From the NCBI RefSeq assembly GCF_003944835.1, contig NZ_RWIV01000001.1:3072530-3136529 (forward strand): a DNA stretch of 64,000 nt. The letters run 5' to 3'. The notes under the pieces were generated by a model that saw only the letters and a list, made by a program, of their open reading frames with translations, made no database searches and was not told the DNA's origin. The first letter of the stretch is position 1; each line of letters opens with the position of its first letter. This DNA comes from Bacillus sp. HMF5848. GTDB taxonomy: Bacteria > Bacillota > Bacilli > Bacillales > HMF5848. This document shows positions 24,285 through 53,887 of the stretch, piece by piece. A program made the position numbers and the translations under genes.

Positions 24285-24580
24285 AAAAAAAGTCCTCCCA
24301 CCCCTACATTCAACCCAAATAACTCATAGGTTGAAGGGGTGAAAAGACTTTACTCACTTTTCACGGTACCACCCTTCTTCATGATGCCATTATCTAGCAT
24401 CACCTCAGGAACGTTTAGTTACGTTCGTTTTAATAACGAGTGCATAATATGTACACCCGGTTTGCTTTACTTAAGTTCAAGCAAACACTCAGAGAGGAGT
24501 TCATTTACGATAATACCACCGGCTTCCAGCAACCCGGCTCTCTGTAGATATCGCGATCGTAAACTACTTGTTCTCGTCAA
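24285..24580 (-). promoter_or_regulatory. T-box leader (leucine type) of the ilvB operon
   Basis: Minus strand, 5' to 3': a Stem I region with the CAGAGAG/CTCTCTG pairing and the GGTTGCTGGAAGCC distal motif; a specifier-loop segment AATGAACTCC in which CTC (24499-24497) is the likely leucine specifier codon; the canonical T-box AAGGGTGGTACCG (24375-24363); then a long terminator stem (about 24349-24291) followed by T7. Uncharged tRNA-Leu should favour the antiterminator. CUC is also the specifier in B. subtilis ilvB. No clear promoter was found between 24580 and ilvE. Confidence 0.93.
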
Positions 24581-24630
24581 TGTTTTTTGATTATTCAGTT
24601 TTTTAATTACACTAATAGACTTAGTTGTTG

Positions 24631-53185: not shown

Positions 53186-53398
53186 ATGGCAATTGTAGAA
53201 GAGAAATTAAATGTTAACGGTATGGAGTGTCAAAGCTGCGTCAATAAAGTAGAGAAATCGTTATTGTCTGTTGACGGTGTACAACGTGCATTAGCGAGTC
53301 TAGACGATAACAAAGTACATATTGAGTATGACGATGGTACGACAAATCTGTCAACTATTCATGATGTAATTAAAAATGTTGGCTATGCTGTCGAATAG
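53186..53398 (+). CDS. CopZ-like heavy-metal-associated (HMA) domain protein
   Basis: A 70-residue single-domain ferredoxin-like metallochaperone. The metal site is NGMECQSCVNKVEKSL (M-x-C-x-x-C), followed by the usual VDGVQRALASLDDNKVHIEYDDG and IKNVGYAVE. ATG 53186 follows GAGAGGTTG. There is no CopA ATPase or CsoR repressor beside it, so the metal (copper or other) is not fixed by context. It is the gene immediately upstream of the candidate selenoprotein. Confidence 0.88.
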   Translation: MAIVEEKLNVNGMECQSCVNKVEKSLLSVDGVQRALASLDDNKVHIEYDDGTTNLSTIHDVIKNVGYAVE

Positions 53399-53518
53399 TT
53401 GAACATAGTGTGGCAATTAAACATGTTTTTCGTTATGACTAAATGGTTTCACTTTCCTTTTTATACTTACAGGGGTATAATAAAGAGTAGAAACAGATCT
53501 AAAGGAAGGTGAACAACA

Positions 53519-53830
53519 TTGTTAAAAGTAACAGCAGCGGCCACATCTCAATTAAAAGAAGAGCTGGCACGTATGCAGGCACGTGTAGAGGATGTATTTA
53601 TTCGTGTGTCACTCGCTGCCGGCTGAGGTGGCCCACAATTAAGAATGGCTCTGGAAGAGTCAGCATTAGATAATGACGAAATAACAGAAAAAGATGGATT
53701 ACGCTTTTTGGTTAATGAGTACCAGAAAACATATTTTGAAAATATTGCGATTGATTATGAAAGCTCTTGGTTTGGTCGTGGATTTACACTCGTTTCCGCA
53801 GATGGTAACAAAATTAACGGAAATTGTTAA
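53519..53830 (+). CDS. HesB/IscA-like protein with in-frame UGA (candidate selenoprotein)
   Basis: The frame opens at TTG 53519 behind AAGGAAGGTG (9-base spacing) and runs 103 codons to TAA, with a single TGA at 53624-53626 (codon 36). Protein before: LKVTAAATSQLKEEL...VFIRVSLAAG; after: GGPQLRMALEESALDND...NIAIDYESSWFGRGFTLVSA and the end NGNC. The IscA/HesB fold has a cysteine where the TGA stands (GC-S/G-G). A HesB-like selenoprotein family with Sec at this site is known in bacteria. Coding character is equal on both sides of TGA, and a fitting hairpin follows. Alternatives are a recent Cys-to-stop mutation or a sequencing error. Sec genes (selA, selB, selC, selD) are not in the window. 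Function presumably relates to Fe-S or redox chemistry. Confidence 0.75.
53646..53662 (+). promoter_or_regulatory. Candidate bacterial SECIS hairpin
   Basis: TGGCTC pairs with GAGTCA (one G-U) around the loop TGGAA. The loop begins 25 bases after the TGA codon and has G as its second base. Published bacterial SECIS rules (short stem-loop, loop about 16-37 nt past UGA, G among the first two loop bases) are met. Confidence 0.6.
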
Positions 53831-53850: not shown

Positions 53851-53887
53851 CAACAGCATGGCAACTTGCCGTGCTGGTGTTTTTTAT
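53851..53887 (+). terminator. Terminator of the HesB-like gene
   Basis: CAGCATGGC/GCCGTGCTG stem with a 5-base loop and T6 on the plus strand, 20 bases past the TAA. Its position confirms that the transcript extends through the TGA to the distal stop. Confidence 0.88.

Follow-up and report, generated by a model that had tools for sequence, protein, structure and literature searches.

Both bacteria and archaea are known to have HesB-like selenoproteins (PMC1794560, PMC5029168), which, with 90 proteins in 86 organisms, are among the commoner bacterial selenoproteins (PMC5029168). Those covered by the model TIGR01911 (HesB_rel_seleno) belong to the IscA/HesB fold family, with a UGA-encoded selenocysteine (Sec) at the first conserved cysteine position and a U-x-G-P motif (PMC13188914). 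A HesB-like selenoprotein of Methanococcus maripaludis was labeled with 75Se, its function being unclear (PMC11097638), and the literature searched assigns no function to HesB-like selenoproteins. The A-type carriers IscA, SufA, and ErpA are of the same fold and carry three conserved cysteines, including a C-terminal C-G-C pair. DsrR of Allochromatium vinosum also has an IscA-like fold and is encoded together with DsrE/TusA-type sulfur trafficking genes. It is encoded in the dsr sulfur-oxidation locus of a proteobacterial sulfur oxidizer, is not described as a selenoprotein and, to judge by the title of a paper by Grimm et al. (2010, cited in PMC11406059), does not bind iron or Fe-S clusters. 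On the regulatory side, the CstR-controlled cst-type persulfide operons of Firmicutes combine a CsoR-family regulator with rhodanese, TusA, persulfide dioxygenase, and TauE. A selenoprotein as a member of such an operon or regulon is undescribed in the literature searched, in which we also found no paper joining selenoprotein, persulfide, and HesB.

We analyzed a HesB/IscA-like gene in a 64,000-nucleotide stretch of DNA from Bacillus sp. HMF5848, called the window below and numbered from its first letter. The gene almost certainly encodes a selenoprotein, and it is probable that it both does so and belongs to a persulfide-responsive regulon. The features discussed are listed here.

53186-53398, + strand: gene for a CopZ-like heavy-metal-associated domain protein with a GMECQSC motif (PF00403, 53 bits), for which a shared functional unit with the next gene is uncertain
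53463-53478, + strand: candidate CsoR/CstR-like operator ATACTTACAGGGGTAT, overlapping a -10-like TATAAT at 53476-53481
about 53501-53512, + strand: ribosome binding site AAAGGAAGGTGA, by direct reading of the sequence
53519..53830, + strand: predicted HesB/IscA-like selenoprotein gene, 103 codons, TTG start, TAA stop (PF01521, AlphaFold2 model)
53624..53626, + strand: in-frame TGA at codon 36, predicted to be read as selenocysteine, invariant in alignments A1 and A2
53646..53662, + strand: putative SECIS hairpin UGGCUCU-GGA-AGAGUCA with a 7-bp stem and the GGA loop at 53653-53655, 26 nt past the UGA
53854-53876, + strand: strong intrinsic terminator CAGCATGGCAACTTGCCGTGCTG of 10 pairs, followed by a T run

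The UGA-containing gene and its family

Translation of 53519-53830 meets a single internal stop, the TGA, in the context A-A-G-[TGA]-G-G-P, and a good ribosome site lies 5' of the TTG start. Mechanical ORF calling returns a 61-aa C-terminal piece alone, beginning at 53645. The family PF01521 (Fe-S_biosyn / HesB-IscA) matches the protein at 31.9 bits, over its gathering cut-off of 26.3, and this match spans the TGA. These results bear out the sequence-only reading, which had proposed a 103-codon gene with one in-frame TGA at codon 36, its own ribosome site and terminator, family character on both sides of A-G-[TGA]-G-G-P, and a C-terminal part that gene callers would report by itself. Its statement that HesB-like selenoproteins had already been described agrees with the cited papers (PMC1794560, PMC5029168, PMC13188914).

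AlphaFold2 predicted an IscA-type fold for the window protein (pLDDT 92). The top Foldseek matches of this model are IscA and SufA structures (1r94, 2d2a, and 1x0g; E about 1e-5), and DsrR is a weaker match (2k4z, E 7.8e-4), the likeness to DsrR being one of fold, without shown orthology. Judged by alignment, the predicted Sec36 occupies the position of the first conserved cysteine of IscA. The only cysteine besides it is C103, the last residue. The window protein shares the fold and the first-cysteine position with IscA, SufA, and ErpA, but it has Sec in place of the first cysteine and lacks the C-terminal C-G-C.

The U-x-G-P motif of TIGR01911 is present as U-G-G-P and is invariant in alignment A2, whereas the window protein scores only 26 bits against the TIGR01911 cut-off of 66.35. 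The best NCBIfam match, with a full-length alignment, is NF038090 (IscA_HesB_Se), whose name suggests a selenium-containing IscA/HesB group; the window protein scores 52.3-54.7 bits against its cut-off of 85 and so falls outside the curated membership. No Bacillaceae representative that we tested reached the cut-off of either model. A tree of 120 distinct proteins resolved a large clade at the yneP-yneQ-yneR-plsY locus, a sulfur-operon clade, and two further groups, of which one is TIGR01911-like and lies near tungstate-transport-like genes, and the other is small and contains the window protein (the clade names are our own). Most members of the yneR-plsY and sulfur-operon clades have Sec and no Cys, and the Bacillaceae clades differ from the TIGR01911 family in mostly lacking C-terminal cysteines. 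The HesB-like selenoprotein family is known, and what is new is its radiation in Bacillaceae, which is large, lies below the annotation cut-offs where tested, and mostly has Sec without Cys. Members of this kind would be simple models for what selenium does better than sulfur. The gene, here called HesB-Sec, was unannotated in both public plasmid records that we checked: in the Cytobacillus megaplasmid record (L185, NZ_CP085393.1 171820-172083) the neighbors, a persulfide operon, are annotated, and so are those on the Mesobacillus plasmid, whose gene table is, however, incomplete.

Conservation and decoding of the UGA

The window's own genome and 60 relatives were compared. In these 61 genomes, the top protein matches each carry exactly one TGA; the stop-free matches, which are ordinary A-type proteins, score at most 40 bits, compared with at least 50 for the main TGA group. 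Every sequence in the alignments has TGA in this column, and its context is nearly always G-U-G-G-P. A search of 397 genomes of the order that left the codon at this site free yielded 62 matches, 61 with TGA and one with TGC (G181). When about 85,000 species genomes were scanned for the motif, at least 120 TGA-bearing places were located, almost all in Bacillaceae. The Cys form of the motif, scanned over about 85,000 species genomes as well, found no relatives, which argues for Sec-only inheritance. Of the 133 places examined, nearly all keep the reading frame open beyond the TGA for some 55-70 codons, which together with the invariant TGA column puts the reading far above chance. Between close pairs of relatives, differences after the TGA fall mostly at third codon positions; before the TGA, the same bias is seen in most close pairs and is less clear in more diverged ones.

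A plain nonsense mutation or a sequencing error in a dying gene would also place a TGA here. Standard gene callers do see a truncated ORF, and the second HesB-Sec copy of one relative (G268, L178 near 5436, - strand) is truly broken by a stop and a frameshift, yet it lies within a sulfur operon. Against this stand the TGA at the same codon in more than 100 species, which makes sequencing error very unlikely, the open frames and purifying selection, and the presence of Sec machinery in the genome. Instead of disabling mutations, the relatives keep the TGA with clean frames. We rejected a pseudogene or sequencing error on this conservation of TGA and frame, and such an origin is barely conceivable.

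The hairpin after the UGA was compared with the constraints given for bSECIS elements, which are an apical loop of 3-9 nt, an upper stem of 4-16 bp, a G in the first two loop positions, and a spacing of 16-37 nt from the UGA to the loop (PMC13188914). It lies within all of these limits (PMC13188914). Codon choice was counted over 114 distinct sequences. The leucine codon of the stem is CTG in 113/113, compared with 120/804 leucine codons (15%) elsewhere in the genes, and the second glutamate codon is GAG in 114/114, compared with 180/699 (26%) elsewhere. The glutamate codon lying between these frozen ones is GAA or GAG in 83 and 31 sequences, respectively, like the background, and the GGA loop is kept in 114/114. 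The core of the element is nearly invariant, and the outer pairs vary, with two-sided pairing-preserving changes at some loci and broken pairs at others, as judged from raw pair counts. Shuffled sequences fold about as stably as the hairpin (z about 0); since free energy is uninformative here, the case for a SECIS rests on the codon constraint and the fit to the model.

The window's genome (4.55 Mb in two contigs, rated 100% complete) contains selA, selB, selC, and selD. The tRNA-Sec gene (selC; C1:2041128-2041220) has a UCA anticodon, scores 54 bits against a 47-bit cut-off, and is adjoined by selB (633 aa) and selA (462 aa), the latter two lying in one 6-kb cluster. Also adjacent is selD (L013:13846-14898, - strand), whose frame has its own in-frame TGA in the context AG-U-GCK, and SelD is very probably itself a selenoprotein.

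Between selD and selA we observed a second small and apparently separate TGA gene, of the SelW type (L013:14996-15235, + strand; G000 C1 about 2044995-2045234). It contains the motif FCMQU (CxxU) and passes the TIGR02174 cut-off with the TGA read as Cys. The predicted selenoprotein genes of the genome thus number at least three; its formate dehydrogenase-like matches showed no in-frame stop.

The central claim of the sequence-only reading, that the gene encodes a selenoprotein, is strongly supported by the Sec machinery and the conservation of the TGA. Its remark that Sec is uncommon in the group of the host did not hold, as SelB exceeds the cut-off in 179/397 genomes of the order. HesB-Sec may help to explain why Sec machinery is kept in many Bacillales, including the window's genome. 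Of the 50 TGA-bearing genomes, 47 have a SelB over the cut-off (P about 6e-15 in a hypergeometric test that makes no correction for phylogeny), and G202, with a partial SelB match and a tRNA-Sec, brings the number of genomes with SelB evidence to 48.

The remaining two genomes, G268 and G342, bear on whether the UGA could be read as another amino acid, for example as Trp or through near-cognate decoding. Both are at least 99% complete, and no selA, selB, or tRNA-Sec was detected in either, yet both hold intact TGA-bearing HesB genes with a conserved SECIS (L177 near 4779 in G268 and L179 near 4840 in G342). These copies look like stranded genes whose hosts lost the machinery or never had it; either that or unusual decoding could account for the intact copies, so a UGA copy is no proof of its use in every host. 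Reading as an amino acid other than Sec is nevertheless very improbable, since gene presence tracks SelB in 48 of the 50 genomes, the site aligns with a catalytic or ligand cysteine, and a SECIS-like hairpin with frozen codons follows it.

A candidate persulfide operator and the sulfur operons of relatives

The 16-bp element ATAC-N6-GGGTAT lies upstream of the window gene and of its four closest orthologs (L016, L017, L079, and L098), and the copy at 53463 is the only one within the window. Its form and its recurrence before sulfur genes are our grounds for calling it a CsoR/CstR-like operator. The promoter region showed no convincing -35 box. The window's genome has 14 copies of the operator, some of them inside ORFs, compared with 5 for a reversed control. 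These copies precede genes for TusA, two rhodanese-like proteins, a glutaredoxin (Grx), a CoADR-like protein, and several transporters, as well as the window gene. As in a CstR-type regulon, the operator is common to the window gene and to sulfur-handling genes of the same genome; in G268 it precedes genes for TusA, DsrE, persulfide dioxygenase, and a CoADR-like protein. Because the window gene is not itself within a sulfur operon, its link to sulfur rests on this operator, from which it appears likely to belong to a persulfide regulon. Candidate regulators in the window's genome are a single-domain CsoR-like protein (L201) and a tandem two-domain CsoR-family protein of 171 aa (L202:1216-1731, - strand). 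The latter is an unusual fused form that resembles the sulfur-operon regulators in sequence and may be a persulfide sensor.

Gene neighborhoods of the relatives point the same way. In the flanks of 27 sulfur-clade loci we found genes for rhodanese, TauE, persulfide dioxygenase, DsrE, or a CsoR-family protein, and in those of about 80 other loci we found none of them (counts use the fetched flanks, with L127 and L129 being duplicates of sulfur-clade proteins). In the yneR-plsY clade, which is the largest, neither the operator nor sulfur neighbors were seen. On the Cytobacillus plasmid, HesB-Sec belongs to a run of genes on one strand, of which the first encodes a CsoR-family regulator. The 5' part encodes DsrE, two rhodaneses, TusA-rhodanese, Grx, DsrE, metallo-beta-lactamase-rhodanese (PDO), TusA, and TauE, and the 3' part encodes DsrE, a DsrE-like protein, HesB-Sec, rhodanese, a hypothetical protein, CcdA, and a redoxin. 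The regulator, rhodanese, TusA, persulfide dioxygenase, and TauE of this run are those of the cst-type operons, whereas the selenoprotein is an addition to the described set.

The operator and these operons suggest a new link between HesB-Sec and the handling of sulfane (persulfide) sulfur. The earlier selenoprotein assignment stands, and no function had been given with it; the operator and the gene neighborhoods now point to persulfide handling. Membership in a persulfide-responsive regulon is a functional lead for HesB-like selenoproteins.

Possible function and the metal-handling alternative

A possible scheme is as follows. SelB and tRNA-Sec would decode the UGA at codon 36 in vivo, aided by the downstream SECIS hairpin, to give a 103-residue protein with Sec at the first conserved cysteine position of IscA. 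Transcription would most likely be under a persulfide-sensing, CsoR-family (CstR-like) repressor that is predicted to bind the operator, and the TusA, rhodanese, and glutaredoxin genes elsewhere in the same genome would be co-regulated. The Sec selenolate would most likely accept, hold, or reduce sulfane sulfur through a Se-S intermediate, the sulfur being handed to or from TusA/DsrE/rhodanese-type partners. The sulfur-carrier chemistry, taken on its own, seems evenly balanced to us. A more tentative proposal is that HesB-Sec serves the bacterial persulfide response as a dedicated, selenol-based carrier or reductase of sulfane sulfur. Equally tentatively, such a protein, forming the Se-S intermediate with a single Sec and often no Cys, might represent a new functional class. 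If the carrier reading is true, this would be the first function for the HesB-like selenoprotein family.

The main competing explanation is a selenoprotein for the handling of Fe-S clusters or of a metal such as copper, in which Sec would be a metal ligand and the linkage to sulfur operons would reflect the repair of Fe-S or copper sites under sulfide stress. The IscA fold and the location of Sec at a metal-ligand cysteine are compatible with this idea. So are the CopZ-like gene directly 5' of the selenoprotein gene, one relative near copZ-copA on the Mesobacillus plasmid, and the type of the operator, as members of the CsoR family also sense copper. However, the protein lacks the CxC ligands that A-type carriers have, and most Bacillaceae relatives have Sec without Cys, so that a single chain cannot form the usual site with three ligands. 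In addition, the operator is found before sulfur genes, and we saw no copper ATPase among its 14 matches in the window's genome. We therefore regard metal handling as unlikely, though clearly worth weighing. For want of the C-G-C pair and, in most relatives, of any Cys, a single chain is unlikely to hold a classical A-type cluster site, and a classical Fe-S scaffold role for HesB-Sec is less likely than sulfane-sulfur handling.

Elsewhere in the window, a T-box leader was recognized at 24332-24589 on the - strand (107.9 bits).
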